Source of the DNA: a virus | IMG/VR virus record: IMGVR_UViG_3300048999_000192 | Coordinates: 91,099 to 155,098 of that record | Direction: 5' to 3' (one strand) | Length of the DNA: 64,000 nt | Shown here: positions 9,212 through 56,052 of the stretch, one piece after another | Layout of the letters: every line of letters starts with the position of its first letter | Position numbering within the stretch: the stretch's first letter is position 1 | The notes under the pieces: generated by a model | Database searches by the model: none | Seen by the model: only the letters and a program-made list of their open reading frames with translations | Told to the model about the DNA's origin: nothing | Made by a program: the position numbers and the translations under genes

Positions 9212-9378
9212 AGGTCTGGGTCCTGGTCGACTTCACCGGCCCCTCCGGCCAGCGGTACACCAAAGGCAGCCAGCTCACCCTCCCCAATGACACGCCCGAG
9301 CAGCAGGCCTACGTCTCGTCACTGATCCGCTACGGCATCGTGACGACGGCCAAGCCCGCGACAGGAGCCACCACGTGA
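9208..9378 (+). CDS. Small hypothetical protein before portal
   Basis: The 56-residue product begins at ATG 9208 inside the stop of the giant ART protein and ends in the GTG of the portal gene, so it is coupled on both sides. It is beta-rich with a final G-I-V-T-T stretch and a short Ala/Thr tail. Its layout (short strand, Y-x-K-G-x-x-L, helix ending the domain) resembles the 87-residue protein at 23546, suggesting a related small head-accessory fold. Function is unknown. Confidence 0.6.
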   Translation: MKVWVLVDFTGPSGQRYTKGSQLTLPNDTPEQQAYVSSLIRYGIVTTAKPATGATT

Positions 9379-11573: not shown

Positions 11574-11582
11574 TGCTGTGCG

Positions 11583-11617
11583 GCCTCCCTCCTGCCATCC
11601 GAAGAGGCGAGGGAGGC
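11583..11617 (+). promoter_or_regulatory. Start-proximal GAAGA hairpin
   Basis: Perfect outer stem GCCTCCCTC / GAGGGAGGC (11583-11591 with 11609-11617) enclosing CC-GAAGA-GG-CGA. The 3' arm contains the likely ribosome-binding site, 4 nt before the ATG, so folding could hide it. Confidence 0.7.
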
Positions 11618-11621
11618 TCAC

Positions 11622-37395: not shown

Positions 37396-38063
37396 GCCTG
37401 CTCTGGAAGTCGGCGGCCTGGTGGAACACCGACCCGGACGACGTGGATGAGTATGAAGAGGGCCTGCGCGACCCGGAGGAGACCGGTAAGGAGCGCGGGC
37501 AGCGCTACGTGTCCCACGTGGTCGACCGGCACAACGTGAGCCGTACGCAGGCTCAGACGGCCCTGCGGCACGTGATGCGCCACCATGACAGCGACGCGAT
37601 CTCTCAGTCGCCGATGGACTACGGCTTCGCCAGCGCGGGCAACCAGATGGGCCACTACTCCCCGGCGATGACGCGCAAGCTGATGGACCCCAAGACCTGG
37701 GAGGGCCGCCCGGTCCAGCAGGTCCCGCTGGACCAGCCGCTCCATGCCAGCCAGAACTTCATCCGTCCCAAGTCCATCGCGCACAACCTCTTCCACCCCG
37801 GCAAGCGGCAGCCGGACTACCAAGACGAGGCCGTCGGCGACCCCGACCACGACCCCGACTGGGACCGGGACGAGGAGGAGTCGAGCGAGGGCGAGTCGCC
37901 GCAGGAGCGCGAACTCCACAAGAACGTCTTCTTCATGAAGCGCAAGAGCGGGCGGATGGAGGTCGTGGACGGGCATCACCGGGTGGCCACGGACATGCTG
38001 CTCGGCAAGTCGCACACCCCTGGCATCGTGATCCACGAGCACGAGCTCAACCAAGGAAGCTAG
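37392..38063 (+). CDS. ParB/sulfiredoxin-like protein
   Basis: The 223-residue product starts at GTG 37392, overlapping the upstream stop. A helical N-terminal part (about 20-95) is followed by an acidic linker and a C-terminal ParB/Srx-type segment: V-V-D-G-H-H-R-V-A-T at about 191-200, where D-G-H-H-R is the nucleotide-binding signature, then a strand with H-T-P-G-I-V-I. The N-terminus (M-S-L-L-W) is shared with the 38296 protein. A DNA- or nucleotide-related role is likely, but the actual activity (nuclease, CTPase or kinase-like) cannot be read from the sequence. Confidence 0.65.
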   Translation: MSLLWKSAAWWNTDPDDVDEYEEGLRDPEETGKERGQRYVSHVVDRHNVSRTQAQTALRHVMRHHDSDAISQSPMDYGFASAGNQMGHYSPAMTRKLMDPKTWEGRPVQQVPLDQPLHASQNFIRPKSIAHNLFHPGKRQPDYQDEAVGDPDHDPDWDRDEEESSEGESPQERELHKNVFFMKRKSGRMEVVDGHHRVATDMLLGKSHTPGIVIHEHELNQGS

Positions 38064-38071
38064 GAGTCGCC

Positions 38072-38299
38072 GTGACCGTCCTCAACCCGAGCGAACTGGA
38101 GCTCCGGGGCGGCTACCATCCGCCGTCCTCGCCGGAGAAGGCCAAGTACCACTCCGACATCCGGGAGGTCTATCTCGCGACCGCCCGCGTGCTGAACGAG
38201 ATGCTGCCGCCGTGCCGGGAGTCCGAGCTCGCGCTGGAGCACCTGCTCGACTACTCGCTGATGCTGGCCAACGCCGCAGCCGCCCGGAGGGTGCCATGA
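38072..38299 (+). CDS. acb2: Acb2-type cyclic-nucleotide sponge (anti-CBASS)
   Basis: The 75-residue product carries the Acb2/Vs.4 family pattern: Y-H-P-P (15-18), K-Y-x3-I-R (25-31), P-x-x-R-E (46-50), L-A-L (53-55) and a closing N-A-A-A-A-R (67-72) on two helices. Acb2 proteins bind cyclic di- and trinucleotide messengers made by CBASS (and some type III CRISPR) systems and so block effector activation. The size is right for the family, whose members form hexamers. Start GTG 38072 follows TAGGAG. It sits between two ParB-like genes within late neck genes and overlaps the next gene by 4 nt. Identification rests on motif match by eye but is quite specific. Confidence 0.8.
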   Translation: MTVLNPSELELRGGYHPPSSPEKAKYHSDIREVYLATARVLNEMLPPCRESELALEHLLDYSLMLANAAAARRVP

Positions 38300-38631
38300 G
38301 CCTGCTCTGGGTCCACGCCAACACCGGCACGCGTATGGTGCCGGTGCACGAGGTCATGGGTTACCAGCCGACCGACTTCCCCACGTGGAAGGAGGTCCAC
38401 GACAACTTCTACTGGGACCACCCCACGATGAAGAACTTCGTCAAGCACATCGGCGAGCACGGGGTGAAGAAGCCCATCCGGGTGGACTACGAGAACGACC
38501 CGCCGACGGTCGAGAACGGCCATACCCGCGCGCTGGCGGCGCAGAAGGCGGGCCTGAGCCACATCCCGGTCAAGCAGTACGAGTGGCCAGGGGACATCGA
38601 CGAGGACGACCGGGAGGGGTACGGGGGCTGA
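38296..38631 (+). CDS. ParB/sulfiredoxin-like small protein
   Basis: This 111-residue protein overlaps the Acb2-like gene (ATGA). I-R-V-D-Y-E-N (about 59-65) and V-E-N-G-H-T-R-A-L-A (72-81) followed by H-I-P-V match the compact ParB/Srx fold, with E-N-G-H-T-R in place of D-G-H-H-R. Its M-S-L-L-W start is shared with the 37392 protein, suggesting that the two arose by duplication around the Acb2-like gene. A role with nucleotides or DNA ends is inferred from the fold. Confidence 0.65.
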   Translation: MSLLWVHANTGTRMVPVHEVMGYQPTDFPTWKEVHDNFYWDHPTMKNFVKHIGEHGVKKPIRVDYENDPPTVENGHTRALAAQKAGLSHIPVKQYEWPGDIDEDDREGYGG

Positions 38632-38634
38632 GCC

Positions 38635-39333
38635 ATGCTGAGCGAGACCGCTGAGCTCCGGATCTCCGAAACTCCGGACCGGCTGATCATGCTGGTGCCG
38701 AACCTCAGCGGCGCCAGGGCGCGCTCGATCGCTAACGCGGCCGTACGGGAGGCCCGGCGCAAGATGCCCAAGCTGAGCGGGCAGGCGGCCAGCCGGATCT
38801 TCCCTATCTACGGCAAGGGCTACTTCGGCATCGGCTTCCTGGACTCCTACGTCTGGTTCCAGGAGAACGGCATCCGCCCGTTCACCATGTACAACCTGCA
38901 GGGCAAGACCATCCCGATGTGGGTCAACGACCCGACCGGCACGCAGCGTCAGCGCAATCCCAAGGCCAAGACCCGCGTCACCATGTCCGGCGTCACGCAG
39001 GTGCTGATCTTCCGCCGGGTCGCCCAGGTCGGCCAGACCAAGACGGTGAAGCGCAGGAGCCGTCTGACGGGCGCGGTGGAGTCGGTCTCGGTGCCAGCCT
39101 CCTACCCGGGCGCGCCAGGACGCATCGGCCGCCGTGAGGCCGCCGCGCCCCTCACCACGCCGGGCAAGACCGGCGGGCAGATCGCCGCCGGGAACGTCGG
39201 CGTACGGTGGCGGCACCCTGGCCTCGCCCCGCGCAAATTCTTGAACAACAGCCTGACGATGGCCGCACAATGGCACGGTATTCTGCCAATTCGGATTTAT
39301 GTGGCAGATAGGAATTGGAGGGCGAGGTTCTGA
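38635..39333 (+). CDS. Neck or tail-completion protein
   Basis: The 232-residue product resembles the HK97 gp10-like class of small neck proteins. An N-terminal strand-helix pair contains A-R-S-I-A-N-A-A-V-R-E-A-R (about 30-42), and a G-Y-F-G-I-G-F-L-D-S-Y-V-W-F-Q-E segment follows. A basic low-complexity stretch (about 95-185) precedes a closing W-R-H-P-G-L-A-P-R-K-F. The W-x-H-P-G and R-K-F ending is typical for these proteins. ATG 38635 is 3 nt after the previous stop. Confidence 0.65.
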   Translation: MLSETAELRISETPDRLIMLVPNLSGARARSIANAAVREARRKMPKLSGQAASRIFPIYGKGYFGIGFLDSYVWFQENGIRPFTMYNLQGKTIPMWVNDPTGTQRQRNPKAKTRVTMSGVTQVLIFRRVAQVGQTKTVKRRSRLTGAVESVSVPASYPGAPGRIGRREAAAPLTTPGKTGGQIAAGNVGVRWRHPGLAPRKFLNNSLTMAAQWHGILPIRIYVADRNWRARF

Positions 39334-40001
39334 TGTATCTGACACATATGAAGGCGATGATCGTCGGGGCGATCAAGGAGACCTTCGACTCGCAGTACCC
39401 GGTCGCCCGATTCCGCGATGTCTGGACCAGCATCGAATATCCGATCCAGAGGCAGAACTACCCCGGCATCTGGGTCGACTACGAGGACGCCCGGCCGCTG
39501 GAGATCGCTGGCATCGACCACAAGGAGGTCGACCCGGACGGGCGGCCGTACACCCGGTGGAAGTTCGGCGGGCACGCCACCTTCACCATCGCGGCCATGA
39601 CCTCGCTGGAGCGGGACACGCTCTATGACGAGATGGTGCGCGTGATCGCCTTCGGGCGGCAGAACGCGGCCACCAGCCGATTCCGGACCTTCATCGAGAA
39701 CAACGAGCTGATCGCCACGAACTTCGACTTCGACACGATCCAGCCGGGCGGCAACGCGGCGGCCCCGGGTACCCCCTGGGGCAGCGACGAGATCATCTAC
39801 GAGAAGTCCTTCTCGATGCAGGCCATCGGGGAGTTCACCGTCGACCCGGACGACGTCACGCTCATCCCGCTGAGCGCGATCATCGTCACCGGCCGCCAGG
39901 GCGGCACCGAGGACGATCCGATCGCCGAGCAGAGCGTCACGATCGATCAGAACGCCAGCGACGACCCCAACTACCCGGTCGGCGCAGGGGAGTGGGTGTA
40001 G
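39333..40001 (+). CDS. Tail completion or terminator protein
   Basis: This 222-residue protein starts at ATG 39333 (TGATG overlap; GGAGGGCGAGG upstream). It has an alpha/beta N-terminal part (about 1-60) with Y-P-G-I-W-V-D-Y, a helix with D-T-L-Y-D-E-M-V-R, and a C-terminal extension with repeated D-D-P. Located directly before the tail sheath, it occupies the usual place of the tail terminator or completion protein that caps the tube and joins it to the neck. Fold and role are inferred. Confidence 0.65.
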   Translation: MYLTHMKAMIVGAIKETFDSQYPVARFRDVWTSIEYPIQRQNYPGIWVDYEDARPLEIAGIDHKEVDPDGRPYTRWKFGGHATFTIAAMTSLERDTLYDEMVRVIAFGRQNAATSRFRTFIENNELIATNFDFDTIQPGGNAAAPGTPWGSDEIIYEKSFSMQAIGEFTVDPDDVTLIPLSAIIVTGRQGGTEDDPIAEQSVTIDQNASDDPNYPVGAGEWV

Positions 40002-40010
40002 GTCCTGCTG

Positions 40011-40060
40011 TCCCTTACCGCTCCCGGACCACCGAAGAGGTGAGCCGGAGCGGTAAGGGA
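40011..40060 (+). promoter_or_regulatory. GAAGA hairpin before tail sheath (best copy)
   Basis: A 14-bp perfect outer stem (TCCCTTACCGCTCC, 40011-40024, with 40047-40060) encloses an inner stem CACC-GAAGA-GGTG. The sheath GTG starts 2 nt after the outer stem, so the hairpin covers the whole ribosome-binding region. Confidence 0.8.
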
Positions 40061-40062
40061 GA

Positions 40063-41595
40063 GTGTCCGAATTGGTAGATTTCACGCGGTACCAGCCTCC
40101 GGGCGTGTACGTCAGCGATGTCTCGCAGCCGCTCGTCAGCAATGCGGGCGTCCCGCAGGCCATCGCCTGCATCGTGGGGCCCGCGCTGGGCTCCACCACG
40201 GCGACCGAGTCGGTGGTGATCGACGCCGACGAGGCCGCGACGCTGACGGCACGCGGCATCTTCACCACGCCGGTGAGCGGCCCACCGGCCATCGCGGCCC
40301 CCGTGGTCAAGAAGCTCGACGGCACCCTGCTGGCGGTCGACACCGACTATGAGTTCTCCGTGGACGCCTCCGCCCCAGGCGGCGCCGCCAACGCGGTGAC
40401 CTCGATCGTCCGGGTGGCCGACTCGACGAACGTCGCCGACGGCGACACCGTCTCGATCACCTACAGCTACGCCGACGCCGACTACTACCAGCCCAAGGTG
40501 TTCGAGGACTACGCCTCGCTGGTCTCGACGTACGGCCTGCCGATGACGTCCACGCCCCCGAGCAACCCCAATGACAGCCAGGTGGTCTCGCCGCTGGCGA
40601 TGGGCGCGCTGATGGCCTTCCAGAACGGGGCCACCCAGCTCATCACCGTGGCGCTGAGCCCCTCAGACGGCACCCTGCAGCAGCAGTTCAACGCGGCGTA
40701 CGGCCGGATCGCGACGAACTACAACACCGCGATCATCACGCCGGTCTTCGTGGACGACCTCACCGTCAACACCGGCACCGTCGCCCAGCTCACCACGACG
40801 CTCGCGCAGGACCTGGAGTCCCACTGCGTGAACGCCTCGGCCGACGGATACCCGCGCATCGGAATCTTCGGCGCCTCGCGCAACTACAGCGAGACCGACC
40901 AGGCCTACGACGCCTTCGCCGCCGCGATCGACAACAAGCGGATCATGCTGGCGTACCCGAACCGGCTGCAGGTCTTCAACGGCTCGACGAATCAAATCAC
41001 GGAGGTCGGCGGCTGTTTCCTGGCCGCCGCCATGGCGGGCCTGCTGAGCTCCCTGCCGACCAACCGGGGCCTGACCAAGCAGACGATCGTCGGCTTCGCC
41101 GGGCTGTCTGCGCCGATCGCCCAGAAGATGACCAAGCTCTTCCGGGACACCCTGAGCCGCTCGGGCGTCGCGGTGGTCGAGGTCAACCGGCTGAGCCAGA
41201 TGATCGTGCGCCACGGCGTGACCACCGACATGACCTCGCTGACCACCCGCGAGGTCAGCCTGGTGCGGATCGCCGACGGCCTCTTCGAGCTCGTGCAGCT
41301 CGGCATGGAGGGCGCGCAGCTCATCGGCGAGGCGATCACCGCCGACACGGTCGTCCAGGTCAAGGGGGCCCTGTCCTCGCTCCTGGAGCAGGCCAAGATC
41401 TCCGAGCTGATCGTTGACTATGCCGACCTGCAGGTCCGGCAGCAGATCTACCCGAGCGGTGACCCCTCGGTCATCGACTGCAAGTTCTCGTACCAGCCTG
41501 CTGTGCCCCTGAACTACATCACCGTGCAGTTCTCGGTGGACCTGCAGTCAGGCGACGTCGGCGACACCACCGCGCTGGCGGCGGCGAGCGCCTGA
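40063..41595 (+). CDS. Tail sheath protein
   Basis: The 510-residue product begins with the sheath N-terminus Y-Q-P-P-G-V-Y-V-S-D (10-19), contains a beta insert (about 51-141) related to the Ig-like repeats of the 28171 protein, then the sheath core with N-D-S-Q-V-V-S-P-L-A, a Rossmann-like middle and a C-terminal domain with Y-x-D-L-Q-V-R. The sheath subunits surround the tail tube and contract on infection, so the phage is a myovirus. Start GTG 40063 directly follows the large hairpin; no other good start is near. Confidence 0.9.
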   Translation: MSELVDFTRYQPPGVYVSDVSQPLVSNAGVPQAIACIVGPALGSTTATESVVIDADEAATLTARGIFTTPVSGPPAIAAPVVKKLDGTLLAVDTDYEFSVDASAPGGAANAVTSIVRVADSTNVADGDTVSITYSYADADYYQPKVFEDYASLVSTYGLPMTSTPPSNPNDSQVVSPLAMGALMAFQNGATQLITVALSPSDGTLQQQFNAAYGRIATNYNTAIITPVFVDDLTVNTGTVAQLTTTLAQDLESHCVNASADGYPRIGIFGASRNYSETDQAYDAFAAAIDNKRIMLAYPNRLQVFNGSTNQITEVGGCFLAAAMAGLLSSLPTNRGLTKQTIVGFAGLSAPIAQKMTKLFRDTLSRSGVAVVEVNRLSQMIVRHGVTTDMTSLTTREVSLVRIADGLFELVQLGMEGAQLIGEAITADTVVQVKGALSSLLEQAKISELIVDYADLQVRQQIYPSGDPSVIDCKFSYQPAVPLNYITVQFSVDLQSGDVGDTTALAAASA

Positions 41596-41626
41596 GACCG
41601 CGAGCGGATCAGAGAGGAGCTGAGCG

Positions 41627-42130
41627 GTGCCGAACACCAAGGTCAGAGTTGTCGGATCGGGATTCACGACCTTCAATTACAATGGCAAAGCGATTGCCTT
41701 TTGCGAGGGCGTGGAGGACTCTGGCCAGCGCGCGTTCAGCGACATCGGCCAGCCCTACCAGTTCATCCACCCGCTGGGGTACACCCACCCGGTGGAGATC
41801 GCCACCTCGCGCGTGCTCGCGGGCGGCACGCTGATGCTGACCATTCGCGAGCTGTGGGCGGCGCCGGTCTGGCAGCAGCTCGCCGGACTGGCGAATTCCA
41901 ACAACATCGTCGACATCTTCGCCGCTTTGGCCAAGAACCCGGCGTACGTCACGTGCCAGACCATCATCAAGCCCGCTGGCACGGAGAGCACTCCATCGGC
42001 CTGGCGTGGGAAAACTTACCAAAACTGCGTCATTGTGGATATCAATGACGGAGACACGATCACCGTCGGCGCCCTGGCTGTGACCAAGGGCATCACGGTG
42101 GCGTACACCCACTCAACCGCGCTGAAGTAG
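41627..42130 (+). CDS. Tail tube protein
   Basis: This 167-residue beta-rich protein directly follows the sheath, as tail tube proteins do. It starts at GTG 41627 with GAGAGGAGC upstream. The pattern of strands around a central helix-poor core, V-E-I-A-T-S-R-V-L-A-G-G-T-L and the closing I-T-V-A-Y-T-H fit myovirus tube proteins, which stack as hexameric rings to form the DNA channel. Assignment rests on position and size plus strand pattern. Confidence 0.8.
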   Translation: MPNTKVRVVGSGFTTFNYNGKAIAFCEGVEDSGQRAFSDIGQPYQFIHPLGYTHPVEIATSRVLAGGTLMLTIRELWAAPVWQQLAGLANSNNIVDIFAALAKNPAYVTCQTIIKPAGTESTPSAWRGKTYQNCVIVDINDGDTITVGALAVTKGITVAYTHSTALK

Positions 42131-42141
42131 GAGAGGAACAC

Positions 42142-42429
42142 ATGTCCGACCCGACCCTGACCCTGACCGCCGACAAGGCGGTCTACGTCGCTGGCGAGAC
42201 CATCACCGTCTCGGCCGCCTACACCGATGAGGCGACCGAGTCCGAGACCCTCACGATCTCGGGCACGGCCACCGACTCGGCGGGCAACACCGTCACGGCC
42301 ACCACGGTGGTCACGGTGAACAGCCAGACGCCGCAGCACATGGACGTCACCGTCACCGACAACGACGACCGCACCTACGCCAAGACGGACGACCAGCCGG
42401 GCGTGGCGACCTTCACCACCACGGCCTGA
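42142..42429 (+). CDS. Small Ig-like virion protein
   Basis: The 95-residue product is a single Ig-like beta domain: L-T-L-T-A-D-K-A-V-Y (5-14), G-E-T-I-T-V-S-A, and a Thr-rich second half. AGGAGAGG lies upstream of ATG 42142. It lies between the tube and the glycosidase-like protein, whose N-terminus also has an Ig-like segment (I-S-G-V-A-T-D), so the two may interact or share origin. Such stand-alone Ig domains decorate virions and bind glycans weakly. Confidence 0.6.
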   Translation: MSDPTLTLTADKAVYVAGETITVSAAYTDEATESETLTISGTATDSAGNTVTATTVVTVNSQTPQHMDVTVTDNDDRTYAKTDDQPGVATFTTTA

Positions 42430-42432
42430 CCC

Positions 42433-43368
42433 ATGCCGCTCAAGCCGCTGACCATCAGCGGTGTCGCGACGGACGCGGAAGGCCGGTCGGTCTCCGCGTC
42501 CGTTTCGGTCACCGTCAACGAGCCGACGCTGTTCGGCAGCTCCATCGTGACCAGCGACGGGGTCAACCACTATGACGCGTTCGACGCGATGTTCGGCGAC
42601 ATCAAGATCGACCGGACCTACAACGCGCTGAACGCCAGCCCGCCGAAGTACCAGAGCACCTGGGCGGCTCAGGACGTCAGCCACAACGCGGCCTCGGCCA
42701 CGAGCTTCAAGTACAACCCGGCCGACGTGCTGTCCGGCTCCAAGGACACGGTCCTGAACAGCTTCTTCTCCACGCTCAAGCCGGGGAAGACCCGCTGGTG
42801 GACCTACTGGCACGAGCCGGACGGGGAGATCTACGGGAGCCCGCAGAAGTTCACGGCCGCCGACTACCGGGCCGCGTTCGTCCACATCAACGTGCTGGCC
42901 GAGGCGCACGTCCCGGCAGGTGTGGACGCTCGGGCGTTCCTGTGCGTCGAGGAGTACTCGATGCGCCCGGCCAACGCCAAGGGCCCGGCCACGCCCCGGC
43001 CGCTGGACAGCTTCTATCCCGGCGACTTCATCCAGTCCGTCGGGTTCGACGTCTACAGCGGCTGGAACGAGTCGAGCCCGTACACGCTCACGCCGTCGGC
43101 GCAGTTCGACAAGCTCTTCAGCCTGGCCGCCGCGCTGGGCAAGCCGCTCTGCATTCCGGAGTTCGGCACGCAGGCCACCCCGCCGACCGGCGTCACCATG
43201 ACGCGGGCGCAGTGGATGACCAACGCGCTGCGCTACCTGAGGCCGCACGCCGACCAGATCTCCTGGATCTGCTGGTGGAACGATGGCTTCGCCGACCTGA
43301 CCGGCGATTCCGCTGCCAGCACCATCTGGAAGAACATGTGCCTGAACGGCTGGAACGGAACGCCCTGA
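42433..43368 (+). CDS. Virion-associated glycoside hydrolase (GH26-like)
   Basis: The 311-residue protein has a short Ig-like N-terminus (about 3-35) and a TIM-barrel-like domain. W-H-E-P-D-G-E (126-132, E128 as proposed acid/base) and C-I-P-E-F-G-T-Q (240-247, E243 as proposed nucleophile) are spaced and placed as in clan GH-A beta-glycosidases such as GH26. Strands with S-V-G-F-D-V-Y and I-S-W-I-C-W-W-N also fit. It sits between tube and chaperone genes, so it is probably carried on the virion to cleave cell-surface polysaccharide. The substrate cannot be predicted. Confidence 0.65.
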   Translation: MPLKPLTISGVATDAEGRSVSASVSVTVNEPTLFGSSIVTSDGVNHYDAFDAMFGDIKIDRTYNALNASPPKYQSTWAAQDVSHNAASATSFKYNPADVLSGSKDTVLNSFFSTLKPGKTRWWTYWHEPDGEIYGSPQKFTAADYRAAFVHINVLAEAHVPAGVDARAFLCVEEYSMRPANAKGPATPRPLDSFYPGDFIQSVGFDVYSGWNESSPYTLTPSAQFDKLFSLAAALGKPLCIPEFGTQATPPTGVTMTRAQWMTNALRYLRPHADQISWICWWNDGFADLTGDSAASTIWKNMCLNGWNGTP

Positions 43369-43484
43369 TGAAGGTCACCATCACCGCCTCCGGGGTGCTC
43401 GCCGACGGGGCCACGGCCACGGGGTCGGTGGTGGTGGACGTTCGGGACGATCGGTACACCGATCTCTACGAGGAAAGATTTTAA
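43368..43484 (+). CDS. 38-aa peptide with Ig-like strand pattern
   Basis: A tiny frame beginning at ATG 43368 (TGATG overlap) and ending two bases before the chaperone gene start. It reads as V-T-I-T-A-S-G-V then S-V-V-V-D-V-R, which resembles half of the Ig-like domains encoded just upstream; it may be a remnant or a real small protein. The short stop-to-start distance suggests it is translated. Its GATTTTAAAAT end is unusually AT-rich for this genome. Confidence 0.4.
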   Translation: MKVTITASGVLADGATATGSVVVDVRDDRYTDLYEERF

Positions 43485-43485
43485 A

Positions 43486-44016
43486 ATGACTGACTCTCTC
43501 CCCACCCCGGAAGGCACGCCGCTCGCCGACGGCGAGACCGAGCGTGCCCCCGCCGTCTTCGACGAGCGATACAAGGAGGCCTTCCACGGCCTCGCCTTCC
43601 TCGGCAAGCTGTCCGAGACCTTCGAGTGGTTCGGCCACAAGATCATCATCCGGACCCTGAACACGGACGCCGAGCTCGCGCTGGCTCAGGTGATCAAGCC
43701 CTGGGAGAACACGAGCTTCTATCAGCGCGCCTACATCGCCGCCGTGGTCGCCTGCGCGGTCGAGACGGTCGACGGCAAGGGTCTGCCGACGCCGCTCGGC
43801 GAGGAGGACAACACCTACGCCTGGGCGCAGCTCCGCTTCGACTACGTCAAGGCCCGGTGGTTCCGGCCGACGATCGACACGATCTACGGCAAGTACCTGG
43901 AGCTGGAGGGACGCGCCCGAGAGGCGGAAGAGGAGCTGGGAAAAGCCTGGGGCCAGGCGGCCCCGACCCCTGGCTCGAACGAGAGCTCCGCCATCTTGAG
44001 CGACGAGGGCTTCTAG
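43486..44016 (+). CDS. Tail assembly chaperone, short form
   Basis: The 176-residue product is the first of the two tail chaperones that, in long-tailed phages, precede the tape measure gene and coat it during tube assembly. It is mostly helical with W-F-G-H-K-I-I-I-R-T-L and an A-Q-V-I-K-P-W-E-N-T-S segment (about 67-77). A heptamer G-GGA-AAA near its end allows shift to the -1 frame, giving the longer fused product; without the shift, translation ends at 44016. ATG 43486 is the only sensible start. Confidence 0.85.
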   Translation: MTDSLPTPEGTPLADGETERAPAVFDERYKEAFHGLAFLGKLSETFEWFGHKIIIRTLNTDAELALAQVIKPWENTSFYQRAYIAAVVACAVETVDGKGLPTPLGEEDNTYAWAQLRFDYVKARWFRPTIDTIYGKYLELEGRAREAEEELGKAWGQAAPTPGSNESSAILSDEGF

Positions 44017-44399
44017 CCGGGCGTGGCCGGTCGCGGGTCCAGGATCTGGGCCTGCGGATCCTGGCCTACTTCGACTACCAGGCCAAGCAGGAGCGCGAGA
44101 CCGAGGACCGGATGGAGCGCATCAAGCTGGCCCTGGTCAGCTCTGGGCGCATGACCCCGGCCGAGGCCTTCCCCGACCTGTTCACCGAGGACACCACACC
44201 CCGGGACGACTCCGAGGTGGACTTCGACTACTCCGGCGTCCAGTGGGAGTCGCCGAGCGATGTGGGCGAGGCCGAGTACGACAAGGTGATGGCCGCGCTG
44301 AGAGACAACGCCACGTTCACTACCCGAGACGCCTCCGGGACCACCGAAGGGGTGAAGACCGAGCTCCCAGCGGAGCCTGACGACACGGAGTGGATCTGA
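43486..44399 (+). CDS. Tail assembly chaperone, frameshifted long form
   Basis: The fused protein is read in frame to about 43943, then in the -1 frame from S-L-G-P-G-G to the stop at 44399, about 304 residues. The added part contains a charged helix, Q-A-K-Q-E-R-E-T-E-D-R-M-E-R, and an acidic, Asp-rich C-terminus. The long form is made in minor amounts and binds the tape measure protein, as lambda GT does. The last codons overlap the tape-measure ATG and include a CACC-GAAGG-GGTG element at 44342. Frame geometry and context make this quite certain. Confidence 0.8.
43938..43944 (+). other. Programmed -1 ribosomal frameshift site
   Basis: G-GGA-AAA in the zero frame of the chaperone gene, of X-XXY-YYZ type and one base different from the lambda G/GT slippery site (GGGAAAG). 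The stop of the zero frame lies about 70 nt downstream and the -1 frame stays open to 44399. Confidence 0.8.
44342..44354 (+). promoter_or_regulatory. GAAGG variant of start-proximal hairpin, inside coding sequence
   Basis: CACC-GAAGG-GGTG, with GAAGGGGTGA differing by one base from the common 10-mer. It lies in the tail of the chaperone coding region, 44 nt before the tape-measure ATG, with only a poor outer stem. Confidence 0.4.
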
Positions 44400-46777
44400 T
44401 GACGACGCCGAACCCGCCGAGTCGTCCAGACCAGGCCGTGTCCAAGGAGAGCTCGGTCAACATGGCCGAGGCGCTGGACTCGCTGACCCAGAACATGGCG
44501 GCGCTGAACGAGACCATGCGCCGTACAGCCGAGGAGATCTCGGCCACCCTGGACATCCAGGGGCGCACCGGTTACGGGCCGGACACCCAGCTCGCCTACC
44601 AGGCGCGCCAGCGGGTCGGCCAGAAGACGCCGGAGATCACCACCCAGGCCCTCGGCAACATGCGCCAGCAGTTCGGCATCACCAACGACCTGACCTTGGG
44701 CATGACCCGGCTGGACCCGACCCAGGCCAGCACCTCGATCGGGCACGCGCGGGCGTACGCGGCCCAGCGCATCGGCGAGGCGATCGGCGGGACGCTGTAC
44801 TCCTCCGGCCCGCCGCCGGGACAGCCGACCTCTACCGGCAGCGGGCCCTCTCGCGGCTCTCAGGGCCCTCCGGCGGGCGGTACGACCTCTGGTGGGGCTC
44901 CACCGGGTGGAGGCGCTCCTGGCGGCTCTGGCGGCCCCCCGAGCATGCCGCCGTCCGGCACCCTGCCCCGCTCCCAGCCGACGCCTGGGCGCAGCCCGGC
45001 CATGCAGGCGCTGGGGGCGCGCATCGCGACCTCGGGCGGGCAGACCGACAAGCTGATGCACGCGGCCAAGCACCTGCCCGTGGTCGGCCTCGCCGCCGAC
45101 GTCGCCGGGCGGGCGGGCCACACCTATCTGGACCAGCGTGAGAAGGGCCGCAACTACCAGGAGATCGAGGGCGGGACGAACCTGTCCGCCCAGCGCGAGC
45201 GCGGGCACGAGGAGGTCTACCGCCTCGGGATGGGCTTCGGCATGTCCGAGGAGGCCTCCCGGCAGGCCTTCTACGGGGTGACCGAGCTCGGCTACAACCG
45301 GCGCGGCGACTCCGGCTCGATCCAGAACCGGCAAGGCGCCCTGAACTTCGCATATCACAACTACAACGCCCGGGGCATGGACGTCGGGGAGTCCCTGCAG
45401 GTCCTGCAGACGGCCAGCCAGAACGCCACGGTGACCTTCAAGGGCCTCTCGGACGCACTGAAGGACGTCAGCGACACGGCGGGCTCGGCGGGCGTCAACG
45501 CCAAGCAGATGCGCCAGCAGTTCGATGCCGTCCTGGGCACCGCCATCCAGCAGGGTGCCGGGCCGGGGTCGACCTCCCTGGCGCGCACGATCACCAGCAC
45601 CCAGGCCTCCTACGGCAAGTCCTTCTCCAACCAGTCCTTCGCCGGGCAGCTCGGCTCGACCGAGATGTACATGATGGCGGGCCAGTACGGGATCAACCCG
45701 GGGCAGGCGCAGCAGATCCAGCGGACCAATCCGCAGGAGTACACCCGCATGCTCACCGGCAACAACAGCCGGGTGATCCAGTCGCTGCAGGGGATGACGC
45801 CCGAGGCGATGAGCGACCTGAAGGCGATCATCCAGAAGTACGGCGGCCAGGGGACGATGGACGCCCAGAAGGCCACGATCGTCGGCAATGAGTGGCTGAA
45901 CAAGTGGCAGGGCCGCAACGCGATCGACCTGAACGTCTGGTCCCAGCTCATCAACCAGATGACCGGCCTGCAGCTCGACAACAACACGGTCATGCAGTGG
46001 GTCGTCCAGCAGGTGAGCGGCAACACCGAGGCCGCCCACGCCGCCACCCAGCAGAGCGCGGGCGTGGCCAAGGTCGCCTCCGACCAGTACGGCAACCTCA
46101 CCAAGGGCACCGGCGGGGCCGACACCGGCAAGACGGGCCTGTACCAGGACCCGAACACCTCCTCCGGCGGCAAGGGCGCCGGGGAGAAGGCCCACACCAT
46201 GCAGTCCGGACCGCTACGTGACCTGAAGGACATCAACGCAGGTCACCACTGGTACGGGACCAAGGCGGCCAACAAGGCGGCCGAGCAGTACATCGGCACC
46301 GTCAGCAAGAACAAGCAGCGCGACCCGATCATGGAAGCGCTGCTGCAGAACGTCAAGGATCCCAACAACACCCACGTGCAGGTCACCACCAAGTCCGGCA
46401 CCCGGGTGGTCTCCTTCGCCGACGCGGTGAAGTACTTCCCGAACGAGCTCACCAGCGGCAACGCCCAGTTCGTGGACGGCCCGCAGGCCGGGCGCGGGGT
46501 CAGCGAGCTCACCGGCGGCAACGTCGACACCACCCGCGACACCTCCGGGGAGATCAAGTCCGACCAGGGCGGCAAGGTCGGCACGAGCCTGAGCGACTGG
46601 CAGAAGAAGCACCCGGCCAAGAAGTCCGGGGCCACCCCGCAGGCCGTGACCGTCGGCCTCACGGCCGAGGCGCAGCGGCTCCTGCAGCTCCTGCCGAACA
46701 ACAACAACCCGGCCGCCGCCTCCGGCAGCCCGCCGCAGAACCCCTACCCGAGCCAGGCGAGCCGGGGTGGTAACTGA
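44399..46777 (+). CDS. Tape measure protein
   Basis: The 792-residue product directly follows the frameshifted chaperones, as expected. It is largely helical, with an N-terminal coiled coil (about 10-60), a Gly/Pro/Ser-rich linker (about 135-205), long Gln/Ala/Asn-rich helical regions and a Pro/Asn-rich C-terminus. Tape measure proteins set tail length and line the tube; this size implies a tail of moderate length. ATG 44399 overlaps the previous stop, and the in-frame GTG 44390 is less likely. No transglycosylase or peptidase motif is present; those lie in the hub protein. Confidence 0.85.
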   Translation: MTTPNPPSRPDQAVSKESSVNMAEALDSLTQNMAALNETMRRTAEEISATLDIQGRTGYGPDTQLAYQARQRVGQKTPEITTQALGNMRQQFGITNDLTLGMTRLDPTQASTSIGHARAYAAQRIGEAIGGTLYSSGPPPGQPTSTGSGPSRGSQGPPAGGTTSGGAPPGGGAPGGSGGPPSMPPSGTLPRSQPTPGRSPAMQALGARIATSGGQTDKLMHAAKHLPVVGLAADVAGRAGHTYLDQREKGRNYQEIEGGTNLSAQRERGHEEVYRLGMGFGMSEEASRQAFYGVTELGYNRRGDSGSIQNRQGALNFAYHNYNARGMDVGESLQVLQTASQNATVTFKGLSDALKDVSDTAGSAGVNAKQMRQQFDAVLGTAIQQGAGPGSTSLARTITSTQASYGKSFSNQSFAGQLGSTEMYMMAGQYGINPGQAQQIQRTNPQEYTRMLTGNNSRVIQSLQGMTPEAMSDLKAIIQKYGGQGTMDAQKATIVGNEWLNKWQGRNAIDLNVWSQLINQMTGLQLDNNTVMQWVVQQVSGNTEAAHAATQQSAGVAKVASDQYGNLTKGTGGADTGKTGLYQDPNTSSGGKGAGEKAHTMQSGPLRDLKDINAGHHWYGTKAANKAAEQYIGTVSKNKQRDPIMEALLQNVKDPNNTHVQVTTKSGTRVVSFADAVKYFPNELTSGNAQFVDGPQAGRGVSELTGGNVDTTRDTSGEIKSDQGGKVGTSLSDWQKKHPAKKSGATPQAVTVGLTAEAQRLLQLLPNNNNPAAASGSPPQNPYPSQASRGGN

Positions 46778-47484
46778 TGGGCTCTGCCTCCCTGGGCTTC
46801 GCAGGTGGGCCCGCGATCAACTTCCGGATCGACCCGGACTCGGTCGACTGGAACTGGAAGATGCAGACCTCGGTCACGCCGACGATCGGCGGCCGGGTCA
46901 TCCAGGTGTGCGGTGCGACCCTGTCCGACCTCACCATCAGCGGCTCGTTCGGCCAGAGCCACGGGGACGGGCCGGACGGGGAGTCCTGGCTGCAGGCCGA
47001 GGCCTTCTTCAAGAAGATCCGGGACATGATGGAGTGGCAGTCCCGGGACGCCACCGACCCCGGCAAGATGCAGCCGCCCGGGGTCTTCACCTACAGCCCG
47101 CGCAACTGGAAGTTCGCGGTCTACGTCAAGGACCTGACCGACCCCGAGGGCGGCGGCTCGGTCACTCACACCACGGGCAAGTTCTCCTACCACTACTCCC
47201 TGACGTTGTTCATCGTCGAGGAGATGTCGGACGCCCTGGTCAAGGCAGGCACCAGCCACGGGGTCCTGAGCGCGGCCAAGGCCAAGGCGATCGATGACTA
47301 CCTCGCGCGCATCAACGACGGGATCGGCTGGCACTTCAGCCAGTACAACGGCTCGACGGACTACGCGGGCAAGAAGTACTCCGAGCCCAAGGTGCCCGAC
47401 GCCTCTGGCAACCAGCCCGGCACGACCACGCCATCCACCCCACCGGCGAGCTCGGGCAACGAGCCCGGCACGACGACCCCCTAG
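46777..47484 (+). CDS. Baseplate or distal tail protein
   Basis: This 235-residue protein follows the tape measure (TGATG overlap). It has a beta-rich core with V-T-P-T-I-G-G-R-V-I-Q-V, a charged helix at about 75-95, a strand pair W-K-F-A-V-Y-V-K, and a flexible Thr/Pro C-terminus with repeated P-G-T-T-T-P. Position right after the tape measure and size suggest a component of the hub or tube initiator, like gp48/gp54 or distal tail proteins. The specific role is inferred. Confidence 0.65.
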   Translation: MGSASLGFAGGPAINFRIDPDSVDWNWKMQTSVTPTIGGRVIQVCGATLSDLTISGSFGQSHGDGPDGESWLQAEAFFKKIRDMMEWQSRDATDPGKMQPPGVFTYSPRNWKFAVYVKDLTDPEGGGSVTHTTGKFSYHYSLTLFIVEEMSDALVKAGTSHGVLSAAKAKAIDDYLARINDGIGWHFSQYNGSTDYAGKKYSEPKVPDASGNQPGTTTPSTPPASSGNEPGTTTP

Positions 47485-47489
47485 GAGGC

Positions 47490-47708
47490 ATGATGCCCAA
47501 CCAGCGACCGGTCTGGAGCGCTGACTGCGCCGTCTCGATGCCCGAGCCGACGGGCGACGAGGTCATCGTGGCCATGTACGGGTTCGGCATGAGCCAGTAC
47601 CGGCTCGTCCATGACATCTCCAGCGCGGAGTACGAGGAGCTGCGCGTCGTCGTCGGCAGCCCGCACGACCCGTCGCTGACCCAGGCTCCCGGCGATCGGG
47701 GGGTCTGA
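47490..47708 (+). CDS. Small baseplate-region protein
   Basis: The 72-residue product has two consecutive ATGs; the second (47493) is better spaced from AGGAGG. It is alpha/beta with V-I-V-A-M-Y-G-F-G-M-S-Q-Y (about 26-38) and an acidic middle. It is coupled to the next gene by overlap. Function is unknown; a small structural or chaperone role in baseplate assembly is possible. Confidence 0.55.
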   Translation: MMPNQRPVWSADCAVSMPEPTGDEVIVAMYGFGMSQYRLVHDISSAEYEELRVVVGSPHDPSLTQAPGDRGV

Positions 47709-48382
47709 TGGCCGAGCGGCAAGGGCTGAACTGCACGCTGAGCTACTCGCGCGGCAGCACCAACAACACCTACAAGGTCCGGGCGACTGTCGTGACCCAC
47801 GGCACGCAGCAGATCGCCGAGGAGTCGCACGCCCGCACGCACCGGGCCTTCTACCCGCACCGGTCCGCGCCCCAGCGGTTCGCTGTCACCGTCCAGGCCA
47901 AGGGCTGGAGCGAGCGCCGGGACCTGATGAACTGGCTGGGCTCCTACGGGGAGTACATGGTCGACCCGGATCTGTCGGCCAGCGTCTACCCGGCCATGAC
48001 GGTGCTGATCCCCTCCCGAGAGTTCACCGGCATCGGGGTGCTGCTGGAGGGCTATGGCTGGGGCGACCACATCGGCTCGATGGTCTTCGAGCACAACCTG
48101 GTCTTCGAATCCTCGGTGGATCCTGGGCAGACGAAGCAGCCCAATACCTCTACCGTCGATAACAAATGGGAAGCGTTCACCCAAGATCAGGCGATCCAGT
48201 ACTTCTACCCATTCGGGACGCAGCTTTCCGGCAATGACGCCCCCGGCGGCAATTACGACAAGATCGTTTACCCTGGCGATCCAGGCAGTTTCAATGACAC
48301 CTGGAACGAGGACGCGTCCGGCATACCTGGCGGCGGCGCGACTCAGGGCGGCGAAGGCAACCCGAATCAGCCCACCGGATAG
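47708..48382 (+). CDS. Baseplate or tail-tip protein
   Basis: The 224-residue protein has N-terminal strands (L-N-C-T-L-S-Y-S-R, Y-K-V-R-A-T-V-V-T-H), a beta-rich core with F-A-V-T-V-Q-A-K-G-W, a Y-x-V-D-P-D-L segment and a Pro/Asn/Gly-rich C-terminal tail. It resembles tube-like or LysM-domain-less hub proteins that sit between the tape measure and the hub in myoviruses. No catalytic motif is seen. Start ATG 47708 overlaps the previous stop. Confidence 0.6.
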   Translation: MAERQGLNCTLSYSRGSTNNTYKVRATVVTHGTQQIAEESHARTHRAFYPHRSAPQRFAVTVQAKGWSERRDLMNWLGSYGEYMVDPDLSASVYPAMTVLIPSREFTGIGVLLEGYGWGDHIGSMVFEHNLVFESSVDPGQTKQPNTSTVDNKWEAFTQDQAIQYFYPFGTQLSGNDAPGGNYDKIVYPGDPGSFNDTWNEDASGIPGGGATQGGEGNPNQPTG

Positions 48383-48390
48383 GGGGACCG

Positions 48391-50970
48391 ATGTCTACGC
48401 TTATCTACTCGCCTGGGGTAAAGGTCTACATTCAGACCGAAAAGAAGGGCACGCTGGACATCAGCGACGACCTGACCCGGGGCACCCTCGTCCGCCGATC
48501 CGATGGCGTCTCCACATTCCAGTTCGGCCTGCAGAACGCCCGGCGTAAGTACGACGGGGTGTTCGCGCCGAACGACCGCATCGTGGTCATGATGAAGCGC
48601 TTCTCCTGGCTGCGGGTCTTCACCGGTTACCTGAACTCGGTGCCGCTGGTGACCGGCTGGCCGATGGAGGTGACCTTCAACGCCTCGTGCTCGCTCAAGC
48701 GGCTGCAGTACTGGTTCTGGGACCCGGGCCTGTCGGCCAGCCAGACGATGGTCGCCAACGCGATCACCGCCGTGAAGAAGGACAACGACAACGGCGACGC
48801 GGGCGTGACCAACGCGGTGCTGACGATCCTGAACTCGGTCGTCGGCTGGCCGGAGGAAAAGGTCCATATCGCAGGCATCCCGCCGAATTGGTTCAAGTTC
48901 GCCGAGAAGATCGCCAAGGACGTGGACGCCAAGGCCGAGGAGGCCGACGCCATCGCGGCGCAGTTCTACGACATCCTCGGCGGGGCGGGCTCGGTCGGCG
49001 GGGCGTCCGGCGGCATCGGCGGCCTGTTCAACGGCACGCTCAAGCCCGGCAAGTACGGTAACGAGACGCTGAACGCCTCTCAGCTCGCGATCATCAAGAC
49101 GATCTACAACGCGGGCAGCCAGGACGGCATGTCCAAGCACGTCATCTCGGCGGCGTTCTGCGCCGGGCGCGCGGAGTCGGACTTCAACGCCACGGTGGTC
49201 AACTCGATCGGCGCGACCGGCCTGTTCCAGATGCGGCCGTCGATGGGCTGGGGCACGAGCGCGCAGTGCAAGGACCCCGTCTACGCCAGTCACAAGTGGT
49301 TCTCGGTCGCCAAGAAGATCAAGAGCCGCGAGACGATGACCTACGGCCACCTCGCGCAGGCGGTGGAAAGGTCCGGGGACTCCTCAGGCGGGATTTACCA
49401 GCGCTGGGCCCCGATGGCCGACGCCCTGTACGCGGCGCTGGCGGCCGGATCATCGGCCGCGACCACGCCGAACACCAACCCCGGGAACGTCGGGCAGGCT
49501 GTCGGCGCGGCCGTGGCCTCGGCTGTCGGCGCTGCCACGGGGAAGGCCACCGGCCTGAAGCTGGTGCAGACGGCCCTGAACCTGATCAAGGTCAACCCCC
49601 ACATTCCCTACCGTGAGGGTGGGGACAGCCCGCCGAGCACCAAGCCCCAGAACGTCCGCTATCTGGACTGCAGCTCCTTCACCCAGTGGGTCTACTACCA
49701 GACCCTGGGCTCATTGCACGGCTTCCCGCGTACGGCCGACGTCCAGGCGGGGTACTGCGGCGCGCACGGCAAGATCCTCACGCCAGGCTCGGCGATGAAG
49801 ATCCGGGGCGCGCTGATGTTCTGGGACAACAACGGGAAGGCGTACGCCACCAAGAGCGGCTTCGGCCACGCCTCTCACGTCGAGATGTCCATCGGGGACG
49901 GCACCCACACGGTGGGCAGTCACCACTCCGGCACCTACGCTTCGGTGGTCAATACCAAAGGATTTTGGCATATCGGTGGATTGCTCCCGAATATCGACTA
50001 CTCCGCCGATGGCGGCGGCGTGGGCGTGGACTTCGGCGGCAGCGGGGATGACGCGGCCGGAGCGACCGGCGGCGTGCAGCTCTCCACCGGTGCCCAGCAG
50101 CCCTGGTACAACCCCAACGACGAGTTCGACAAGATGTTCGGCAACAACCCCTGGGTGCCGCAGTACAACGTGGACTCGGCCGAGTCTGAGGCTCTCGTGG
50201 GCATCCGGGCGCTGCTGAACGACCAGCCGCTCCTGCCGTACATCAAGAACCTGATGAACTCGACAATGCGCTCATTCAGCAGCGCGCCGAACGGCGACCT
50301 CATCGCCTGGTTCCCTGATTACTATGGGATTTGGGGCACCTCGGCATCTATGGTCATCGAGCCGATCGAGCTACAAGACTTCTACGTCGAATGGTCGGAC
50401 GACTTCTTCGTCACGCACCAGTTCACGGTGGCCCCGCGCGGCCAGCAGGGGCTCGATCTGCTCTCGGGCGAGGTGAACCCGAACAGCCCGCTGCAGGCGG
50501 TCACGACCCTGGGCATCGCCACGATCGATATCCCCTCGATCATGTATGCCCTGTTCGGTCTGGAGCCGTCGGCTGACGCCGCCCAGAAGTTCATTGCCTA
50601 CATCTACAAGCGCTTCGGTGCACGGCCGGACTTCCAGCAGATGCCGGGCGTTACGGGCCCGCGCGGTGAGTTCTTCAGCGCGATCTTCCTCTTCATGCGG
50701 CAATGGGCCTATCAGTACAACGCGGACGTTCCGATCACTTTCATGCCGGAGCTATGGCCGGGAATGAACATCAAGGTCCCCGCATTCGACTTCCAGGCCT
50801 ATGTGACCACGGTGACCCATAACTTCCAATTCGGGGACAACCCGAGCTTCACCACCACGGCCAACATCGCCGCGCCCGCGCGCCTGAGTCAGAAGGGCTC
50901 GGGCAATCTGATCGGCCTGCCGATCGCAGGCGGACTGGGCAACACGGACGCGGCAGTCGGAGGAAAATGA
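48391..50970 (+). CDS. Baseplate hub with lytic transglycosylase and NlpC/P60 domains
   Basis: This 859-residue protein is a hub (gp27-like) with inserted muralytic modules. Residues 1-120 are beta-rich hub domain. An SLT-like transglycosylase domain spans about 225-360 (likely E262 in A-E-S-D-F, then G-L-F-Q-M-R-P). An NlpC/P60 peptidase domain spans about 395-540 (C427 in L-D-C-S-S-F, H496 in S-H-V-E-M). The C-terminal third returns to hub-like beta structure. It would cut both glycan strands and peptide stems locally while the tail passes the wall. Gene order and both active sites make the call firm. Confidence 0.85.
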   Translation: MSTLIYSPGVKVYIQTEKKGTLDISDDLTRGTLVRRSDGVSTFQFGLQNARRKYDGVFAPNDRIVVMMKRFSWLRVFTGYLNSVPLVTGWPMEVTFNASCSLKRLQYWFWDPGLSASQTMVANAITAVKKDNDNGDAGVTNAVLTILNSVVGWPEEKVHIAGIPPNWFKFAEKIAKDVDAKAEEADAIAAQFYDILGGAGSVGGASGGIGGLFNGTLKPGKYGNETLNASQLAIIKTIYNAGSQDGMSKHVISAAFCAGRAESDFNATVVNSIGATGLFQMRPSMGWGTSAQCKDPVYASHKWFSVAKKIKSRETMTYGHLAQAVERSGDSSGGIYQRWAPMADALYAALAAGSSAATTPNTNPGNVGQAVGAAVASAVGAATGKATGLKLVQTALNLIKVNPHIPYREGGDSPPSTKPQNVRYLDCSSFTQWVYYQTLGSLHGFPRTADVQAGYCGAHGKILTPGSAMKIRGALMFWDNNGKAYATKSGFGHASHVEMSIGDGTHTVGSHHSGTYASVVNTKGFWHIGGLLPNIDYSADGGGVGVDFGGSGDDAAGATGGVQLSTGAQQPWYNPNDEFDKMFGNNPWVPQYNVDSAESEALVGIRALLNDQPLLPYIKNLMNSTMRSFSSAPNGDLIAWFPDYYGIWGTSASMVIEPIELQDFYVEWSDDFFVTHQFTVAPRGQQGLDLLSGEVNPNSPLQAVTTLGIATIDIPSIMYALFGLEPSADAAQKFIAYIYKRFGARPDFQQMPGVTGPRGEFFSAIFLFMRQWAYQYNADVPITFMPELWPGMNIKVPAFDFQAYVTTVTHNFQFGDNPSFTTTANIAAPARLSQKGSGNLIGLPIAGGLGNTDAAVGGK

Positions 50971-52394
50971 TGCAGGCAGCCAAGACGGTCAACCCGCTCA
51001 CCAACTCGATCGGCTTCAACGTCCGCCGGGTCAGGGTGACGCAGGTCGACCCCGCTCAGGGCATCGCGCTGGCCGTGGACGAACTGAACGTGGAAGTGAC
51101 GCTGCCTCTGTACGTCACGCGGGCCGCCGCTCGCCCGCCGCAGCCAGGCGAGATCTGGCTGATCGACCAGGCATTGGGCCTGTGGACCTTCGCCGCCCTG
51201 GTCGGCACCGTGGCGAACACCTCCGTCGTCACCACCCTGGACGACCTGGCGAACGTCAGCGCCCCGTCGCCCTCCAACGGACAGATCCTGCGCTACAACT
51301 CCGCGACCACCCTGTGGGAGGCCGTCACGAACCCGGGGCCCAATCCCTGGGTCTGGAATATCACCGATGGCCTCAATGACGGCCTCACGATCAATGGCAC
51401 GTCGGGCACGCTCAAGCAGATCCTCCTGATCAAGGACTATCTAGGAGCGCCGATTTTCGGCGTCGGTCACGTCGGCGGAGCAGCGGTGTACGGCGACCAC
51501 CTGAAGGTCTTCGCGCCCGGGGTGGGCTTCGTCAACACCTTCGACGTCGACCCCACTGGAAAGGTCACCATCTCGGGCGCTGGTCAGCTCCAGATCGGTA
51601 GCACCGTCCTCAACGAGGCCGATATCCAGAATCTGCACAGCCATGCCGGGACCAATCCATGGCTGTTCATCCAGACGGACATCGCTCAGGACGGCATGAT
51701 CGTCCGGGGTGCGGGTGGGTCGCTGAACACGATCTTCGGCGTGGAAGACGGCGGCAGCAACCTCATCATGAACGTCTCGCCGCTGGGCGGCGTCGGCGTG
51801 TTCGGCAACCAGTTCCGCGTGTTCACTGGCGTGTTCGGCAGCGCCAACGTCATCCTCGATCCCTCGGGCACCGTCACCGTCAACGGCACCGGGACGCTCA
51901 CTCTTGGCGCGCAGACACTCACCGCGTCCGATATCGCCGCCCTGCACAGCGGTGCTCTACCCATGCCGTCGCTGTCGGTCTATCGGAGCGCGGCCCTGTC
52001 TTTGACCGGCACGTCGCTGACCACCGTGTCCTGGGACGCCGAGGAGTGGCAGGACAACGTCGCGACGAACGCGATGCACAACACGGCCTCGAACTCCAGC
52101 CGCCTCATCGCTCCGACTGCAGGCAAGTACGACCTGTGCGCATGCCTCCAGGTGGTCTCGAACGCCTCGGCCCCCTACCTGACGATCCAGGTCAAGAAGA
52201 ACGGGACGACCGTCTTGCGCACCAAGAGCATGACCGGCACGGTCAGCCAGGTGAACAGCGTCGACATCAACACCCGGCTGAAGCTCAGCGCCAACGATTA
52301 CGTGGAGATCCTCGTCTCCAGCACGGTGTCCGGTCAGGCGCTGACGGTCGGCTCCAGCACGTGCTTCGCCAGTCTGGCATTCGCGTCCGCATAG
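50967..52394 (+). CDS. Baseplate spike or fibre protein with TNF/C1q-like tip
   Basis: The 475-residue product has an N-terminal OB-like domain (about 18-85, V-R-V-T-Q-V-D-P-A and P-G-E-I-W-L-I-D), typical for spike proteins (gp5/gp45-like). A repetitive beta shaft follows with repeated I-F-G-V and V-F-G-N segments (about 130-335), and then a C-terminal domain (about 345-475) with the Y-R-S-A-A-L-S-L and I-A-P-T-A-G-K-Y pattern of TNF/C1q-like receptor-binding heads. ATG 50967 or 50970 can serve as start. It follows the hub gene with overlap; it may be central spike plus cell-surface probe. Confidence 0.65.
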   Translation: MMQAAKTVNPLTNSIGFNVRRVRVTQVDPAQGIALAVDELNVEVTLPLYVTRAAARPPQPGEIWLIDQALGLWTFAALVGTVANTSVVTTLDDLANVSAPSPSNGQILRYNSATTLWEAVTNPGPNPWVWNITDGLNDGLTINGTSGTLKQILLIKDYLGAPIFGVGHVGGAAVYGDHLKVFAPGVGFVNTFDVDPTGKVTISGAGQLQIGSTVLNEADIQNLHSHAGTNPWLFIQTDIAQDGMIVRGAGGSLNTIFGVEDGGSNLIMNVSPLGGVGVFGNQFRVFTGVFGSANVILDPSGTVTVNGTGTLTLGAQTLTASDIAALHSGALPMPSLSVYRSAALSLTGTSLTTVSWDAEEWQDNVATNAMHNTASNSSRLIAPTAGKYDLCACLQVVSNASAPYLTIQVKKNGTTVLRTKSMTGTVSQVNSVDINTRLKLSANDYVEILVSSTVSGQALTVGSSTCFASLAFASA

Positions 52395-52403
52395 CTGTCC
52401 GCG

Positions 52404-52439
52404 CCTCCCTGCCGACGCCGAAGAGGTGAGGCGGGGAGG
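52404..52439 (+). promoter_or_regulatory. GAAGA hairpin before baseplate wedge genes
   Basis: A 10-bp outer stem CCTCCCTGCC / GGCGGGGAGG with one G-T wobble encloses CGCC-GAAGA-GGTG. The GGGGAGG arm is also the ribosome-binding site of the next gene (ATG 52445). Confidence 0.75.
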
Positions 52440-52444
52440 TGTGG

Positions 52445-52873
52445 ATGAAGACGCTGGCGCTCCAGAGCGGCGACCTGGTGATCGGCCAGGCCGGGCACAA
52501 GACGATCACAGGGCTGTCCAAGATCCGGCAGGACCTCGCGCTGGCTCTCGGCGAGGAGCTCGGCAACGACCGGTTCCATCCGCAGTGGGGGTCAACGCTG
52601 CCGAAGTTCGTCGGCCTGCCGATCACCGTCGACACCAACATGCTCGTACGGTCCGAGATCGCCCGGGTGATCCAGGCCTACATCAGCGTCCAGCAGAACG
52701 AGGTCGTCAACGACTCCCTGGCGGCCAGCCGGACGCGGTACTCCACCTCGGACGTGGTCGCTCAGGTGACCCGCGTCGACACCACCGTCAGCTACGACAC
52801 CATCCGGGCCCAGGTGACCCTGCGTACGGTCTCCCAGCAGGATGTCTCGATCAACCGGACCCTGACCCTGTAG
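52445..52873 (+). CDS. Baseplate wedge protein, gp25-like
   Basis: The 142-residue product fits the T4 gp25/GPW family: G-L-S-K-I-R-Q-D-L (about 23-31), then a short helix, P-Q-W-G-S-T-L-P-K-F (about 46-55), an R-S-E-I-A-R-V-I-Q-A-Y helix, and a terminal strand region. gp25 initiates sheath polymerisation at the baseplate. ATG 52445 has a well-spaced GGGGAGG; GTG 52439 is less likely. The next gene is the J-like wedge, the usual neighbour. Confidence 0.8.
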   Translation: MKTLALQSGDLVIGQAGHKTITGLSKIRQDLALALGEELGNDRFHPQWGSTLPKFVGLPITVDTNMLVRSEIARVIQAYISVQQNEVVNDSLAASRTRYSTSDVVAQVTRVDTTVSYDTIRAQVTLRTVSQQDVSINRTLTL

Positions 52874-52882
52874 GAGCTGGCA

Positions 52883-56049: not shown

Positions 56050-56052
56050 GGC

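Follow-up and report, generated by a model that had tools for sequence, protein, structure and literature searches.

Between the tail tube and tail assembly chaperone genes of a contractile-tailed virus lies the gene for a genuine GH26-like glycosidase that is probably active, an unusual genomic place for such an enzyme. There can be high confidence in its glycosidase fold and active site, and the protein is likely to be active; as a GH26-like protein of clan GH-A, it would be expected to function as GH26 enzymes do. The overall reading proposed here, that of a virion-associated, active, retaining endo-glycosidase of GH26-like type, with its docking site left open, has about an even chance of being correct.

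The window, meaning the whole stretch of DNA that was analysed, is the final 64 kb of a virus record 155,098 bases long, and all virus positions refer to it. The virus is related to Myrna/Phabba-type actinophages, and its host is probably actinobacterial. The presence of a sheath gene (Table 1) implies a contractile tail; the sheath protein has ~32% identity to that of Phabba/Myrna, and matches 214 phage records, each at <60% identity, most being from Mycobacterium phages, with some from Gordonia and Rhodococcus phages. A megablast search of positions 38000-58000 against phage records returned no match. The position of the tube frame matches the gene order around the annotated tail tube gene of Rhodococcus phage E3, and, with a chaperone gene downstream, the enzyme lies between tube and chaperone as had been proposed in an earlier note made from this DNA. 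The virus also encodes baseplate proteins (phrog_2669/GPW_gp25 and Baseplate_J) and, downstream of the enzyme, a 795-aa tape-measure-like protein with a weak PhageMin_Tail match. The chaperone gene contains an in-frame GGGAAAA heptamer at 43938, from which the -1 frame is open to 44399, resembling the programmed frameshift of lambda G/GT. Elsewhere, a 528-aa protein upstream of the tail genes (28171-29757) contains an fn3 domain (E 4.4e-12) and weakly matches CBM_X2, and an 859-aa tail protein (48391-50970) has weak phage-lysozyme and NlpC/P60 matches, making it a possible second envelope-cutting enzyme.

Table 1. Features in and around the interval between the tube and chaperone genes, in window positions
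Feature	Position	Strand	Basis or remark
Tail sheath protein	40063..41595	+	phrog_2839, E 4.9e-65
Tail tube protein	41627..42130	+	phrog_2756 virion structural protein, E 5.5e-32
ORF1, 95 aa, Ig-like	42142..42429	+	sequence, model strands, weak Pfam
TGA CCC, sole break between ORF1 and enzyme, same frame	42427..42432	+	sequence
GH26-like glycosidase gene, 311 aa	42433..43368	+	
Half Ig-like unit of enzyme, aa 6-30	42448..42522	+	
Stable RNA hairpin, 28 nt past TGA	42458..42514	+	z -4.4
Catalytic (beta/alpha)8 domain, aa ~31-311	42523..43365	+	AlphaFold and VIA
E128, predicted acid/base; directly follows strand 4, within WWTYWHEP	42814..42816	+	
E243, predicted nucleophile, strand 7	43159..43161	+	
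ORF3, 38 aa, half Ig-like unit	43368..43484	+	TGATG: start codon overlapping the stop of the enzyme
Tail assembly chaperone, first frame	43486..44016	+	phrog_2792, E 2.5e-14; -1 continuation to 44399

The enzyme gene is an intact 311-codon frame (protein P0001), and its codon usage is that of coding sequence in its own frame only (0.43, against -1.04 and -0.78). Three frames between tube and chaperone are supported in this way, namely ORF1, P0001 and, weakly, ORF3, which has a coding-like GC3 of 0.84. In an AlphaFold model of moderate confidence (pTM 0.71, mean pLDDT 67.8, with residues 62-84 and 131-137 below 50), eight barrel strands occur in order, with E128 immediately following strand 4 and E243 sitting on strand 7. 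These are the places at which clan GH-A enzymes carry their acid/base and nucleophile Glu, respectively. Structure prediction had been named in the earlier note as a check on the fold, and the (beta/alpha)8 barrel is retained in this model. The best Foldseek rows were CtLic26 (E 4.4e-11 and 3.5e-10), as were all of rows 1-7 in VIA (Z 18.5-19.4, rmsd 3.2-3.6, 241-249 residues aligned), with GH5 and other clan GH-A rows coming next at Z about 17, some two Z units lower. Among viral models, the best Foldseek matches were hydrolases of Lactobacillus phage Bacchae and Pseudomonas phage POR1, with TM-scores, taken by query length, of 0.55 and 0.40; other BFVD rows, luciferase-like ones included, were dismissed as common barrels.

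Searched singly, P0001 had no match in Pfam, PHROGs, NCBIfam or PDB sequences, nor among phage records by tblastn to E 10, and scans of viral_contigs, one of them using the sheath, found no relative. Scanning species genomes yielded 21 pattern matches, five of which encode relatives, all in actinomycete MAGs. Within the class concerned, the single protein matched 8 of 148 sampled genomes (best E 1.4e-23) and the small profile A1 matched 25 of 246, both samples being even draws centred on a genome already matching, rather than whole classes. The closest sequences are actinomycete GH26-like proteins at ~25-32% identity, and in a tree the phage gene sits beside an actinomycete clade (L003/L019/L021, with L005 also a member; support 98/96) on a long branch (1.64). 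The L003 locus, from an actinomycete MAG, carries three tandem GH26-like paralogues (7251-12714) with GT28, sulfotransferase-like and MatE genes nearby, and may serve a surface polysaccharide.

The predicted catalytic Glu pair is conserved across these relatives. Only four columns are invariant (G35, E128, Y208 and E243) in the 14-row alignment A4, which consists of 13 bacterial rows picked by hand plus the phage protein. A wider alignment began with 35 frames from both strands, leaving 32 bacterial domains once duplicates were dropped: E128 is Glu in all 31 relatives covering it and E243 in 31/32, the exception being Asp in L007, while Y208 is Tyr in 32/32 and D206 is Asp in 31/32. The two Glu residues are present at the numbers given in the earlier note, and its proposal of a clan GH-A glycosidase with an intact catalytic pair is borne out by both fold and conservation. 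The residue preceding E128, H127, is His in 26 of the 31 covering relatives; a His preceding the acid/base Glu is a sign of GH26, and it is present in the phage protein. Pfam Glyco_hydro_26 (PF02156) is matched at E 0.01 by eight of the 14 rows of A4, the phage row not being among these, and it matched neither the phage protein, at E 1, nor anything else in the virus record. The protein is therefore described as GH26-like, and is not filed as a plain member of GH26. Profile A1 alone reached GH26 at only E 0.077; the A4 profile finds CtLic26 at E 7.4e-49, along with many GH26 mannanases and xylanases, and as A4 includes rows that themselves match PF02156, this link at E 7e-49 shows kinship via intermediates.

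The enzyme is flanked by Ig-like pieces. ORF1 contains one Ig-like unit (aa ~4-60) followed by a 35-aa tail; the Ig-like neighbour starting at 42142 had been recognised in the earlier note, and this identification holds, with weak Pfam matches below cut-off only (Filamin 0.0054, MG2 0.0059) and five strands modelled at low confidence. Searched against phage records, ORF1 had no match at E 1. Residues 6-30 of the enzyme align with the second half of the ORF1 unit (score 72 against a shuffle mean of 21.6, equalled in 0/1000 shuffles), and, judged by sequence, this half is paralogous to ORF1. The Ig-like N-terminus previously attributed to the enzyme is thus Ig-related, but is half a domain rather than a whole one. 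Two features go beyond that earlier description: ORF1 and the enzyme share a frame across a single TGA, and a third, half-Ig ORF lies downstream, as ORF3 weakly repeats the Ig half (6/1000 shuffles against ORF1, 1/1000 against the enzyme).

This stop-codon arrangement is the most unusual feature of the locus. ORF1 has its own ATG and a Shine-Dalgarno-like GGAGAGG, 11 nt past the tube stop, and the enzyme ATG, 3 nt past the ORF1 stop, is without a Shine-Dalgarno sequence. Starts of this kind recur in the window: at least four others, at 15361, 29759, 36190 and 38635, lie 1-4 nt past a TGA and have no obvious Shine-Dalgarno sequence, and coupled re-initiation is therefore the default reading; that the enzyme is made by such translational coupling we consider fairly probable. 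The Ig-like ORF1 would be translated first, with ribosomes that end at its TGA re-initiating at the enzyme ATG to yield a lower level of enzyme, and ORF3 would follow through TGATG coupling. The hairpin beyond the TGA ranks third among 55 post-stop windows, with 5/1017 windows as low, and a two-hairpin fold starting further upstream is an alternative of near-equal energy. Very stable RNA hairpins also occur at or near gene ends elsewhere in the window (15721, 25501, 40002 and 52381; z -5 to -7), and are possible terminators.

In the role proposed here, the Ig-like pieces would dock the enzyme on the outer surface of the virion, the sheath, baseplate or head being likelier sites than the buried tube, and the docked enzyme would cut beta-linked polysaccharides of the host surface or biofilm during approach. 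Whether the enzyme is part of the virion is a balanced question, and that it acts on a glycan of the host envelope is equally finely poised. With both sheath and baseplate present, an enzyme bound to the tube would be buried in the uncontracted tail, such that the realistic placements are display on the sheath, baseplate or head, or a free enzyme after lysis. As the enzyme N-terminus is not strongly hydrophobic, it lacks the usual export signal, and exit in virions or at lysis is possible. The gene is packed among tail genes with 3-nt and overlapping spacing; this coupling, the Ig-like pieces and the missing export signal favour a virion location, and the earlier idea of a tail-decorating depolymerase is a plausible conjecture. 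There is precedent for such modules in mycobacteriophage Douge, where Ig-like domains of the tube and capsid bind LAM/AM fragments (PMC13033339), and in the 936 phages, which have carbohydrate-binding TpeX extensions on the major tail protein (PMC6669499); many sheath proteins also carry extra Ig-like domains (PMC9230969).

The main competitor to virion association is that the gene is cargo (a moron) for a glycosidase that would be expressed late, together with the tail genes, and set free by lysis to loosen capsule or biofilm, which we regard as a minority prospect, at roughly one chance in four. It draws on the varied content of this slot: in ten of the phage records matched by the sheath, the slot holds 16 genes in all, and no annotation there names an enzyme; the nine slot proteins that were scanned, those other than seven of 26-67 aa, gave no glycosidase match, with five instead matching DUF7251 (PF23909), four above cut-off and that of Skog below. 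Hence the slot is variable, the enzyme occurs in this virus alone among those compared, and its gene may be an accessory unrelated to tail structure. The L003 and L005 relatives, long proteins that have an N-terminal extension and match CBM_4_9 weakly, resemble extracellular bacterial enzymes, and another phage record, GX15bay, encodes a GH26-like 'endoglucanase' next to glycosyltransferase genes, both of which suit a free enzyme; the flanking Ig-like pieces and the tight coupling to tail genes better fit a structural role.

Readthrough of the TGA is a possible alternative to re-initiation, joining ORF1 and the enzyme through UGA-C into one 408-residue protein, with Ig, Ig and GH26 parts on a minority of copies. 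UGA-C is a leaky stop, and frameshifts add Ig or CBM domains in SPP1 and 936 phages. The shared frame, with coding signal on either side of the TGA, the enzyme ATG without a Shine-Dalgarno sequence, the paralogous half-Ig directly past the stop, and the strong hairpin are all in keeping with this. Nevertheless, TGA is the commonest stop here (40/60 called genes), similar TGA-adjacent starts recur in the window, the 35 aa preceding the stop align with the first half of ORF1 no better than shuffles (p 0.57), the Ig parts of a modelled fusion have pLDDT of 44-67, and the hairpin is modest under synonymous codon resampling (14/1000 as stable; 8/294 genome windows as low), making a fusion protein unlikely. 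Slightly less likely again is a graded display, in which mostly Ig-like ORF1 is translated, and either UGA readthrough or re-initiation puts the enzyme on a minority of copies; the Ig-like domain split by the stop would then act as a docking joint, setting the dose of enzyme along the exterior of the contractile tail. Least credible is that the barrel binds carbohydrate but has lost catalysis, or that the gene is decaying: the long branch is consistent with this, and the TGA within the Ig region could have arisen by nonsense mutation or, the record being metagenomic, by misassembly, but both Glu residues, D206, Y208 and G245 are retained, and the intact frame has a strong coding signal.

If the preferred reading, of an active enzyme carried on the virion, is true, then a GH26-type enzyme joins the tail-associated sugar-active modules already known, and does so in a group of phages confronted with complex actinobacterial envelopes. 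It may aid passage of the virus through the host's sugar coat, and could become a tool for envelope glycans that have received little study. In the open-licence literature searched, binding modules are described at a place adjacent to the tail tube and no enzyme is, there was nothing on GH26 as a phage depolymerase, mentions of GH26 with phages being incidental by title, and no paper on DUF7251 was found. In the GX15bay locus (L051 6993-10776), the GH26-like 'endoglucanase' is accompanied by a 'mannanase', next to a family 2 glycosyltransferase, and further glycosyltransferase genes lie beyond.

The best fold match, the Clostridium thermocellum GH26 lichenase CtLic26 (PDB 2bvd, 2cip, 2vi0 and 2bv9), has the (beta/alpha)8 barrel in common with the phage enzyme (2bvd: Z 19.4 over 242 residues at 3.2 A), and its His-Glu 108-109 and Glu222 fall in the same profile columns as H127-E128 and E243; residues 109 and 222 are its catalytic residues. 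The two differ in loop lengths and have 18-20% identity. The actinomycete GH26-like proteins (L003, L005, L019, L021 and others) share WWTYWHEP, or close variants, with the phage enzyme, but are longer, with a weakly CBM-like N-terminus in L003 and L005 where the phage enzyme has its half-Ig. The DUF7251 proteins of Ceeclamvirinae and Skog, like the enzyme, sit in the tube-chaperone slot, but are without a glycosidase-family match. TpeX of the 936 lactococcal phages (PMC6669499) likewise links a carbohydrate-active module to the major tail protein and includes an Ig-like domain; it differs in belonging to siphophages, arising by frameshift fusion, and being a binding module instead of an enzyme. 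An Ig-like or carbohydrate-active module adjoining the tube gene is common to this locus and the SPP1 gp17.1*/TpeX type, whereas the frameshift fusion to the tube protein is replaced here by an ORF1 with its own start.
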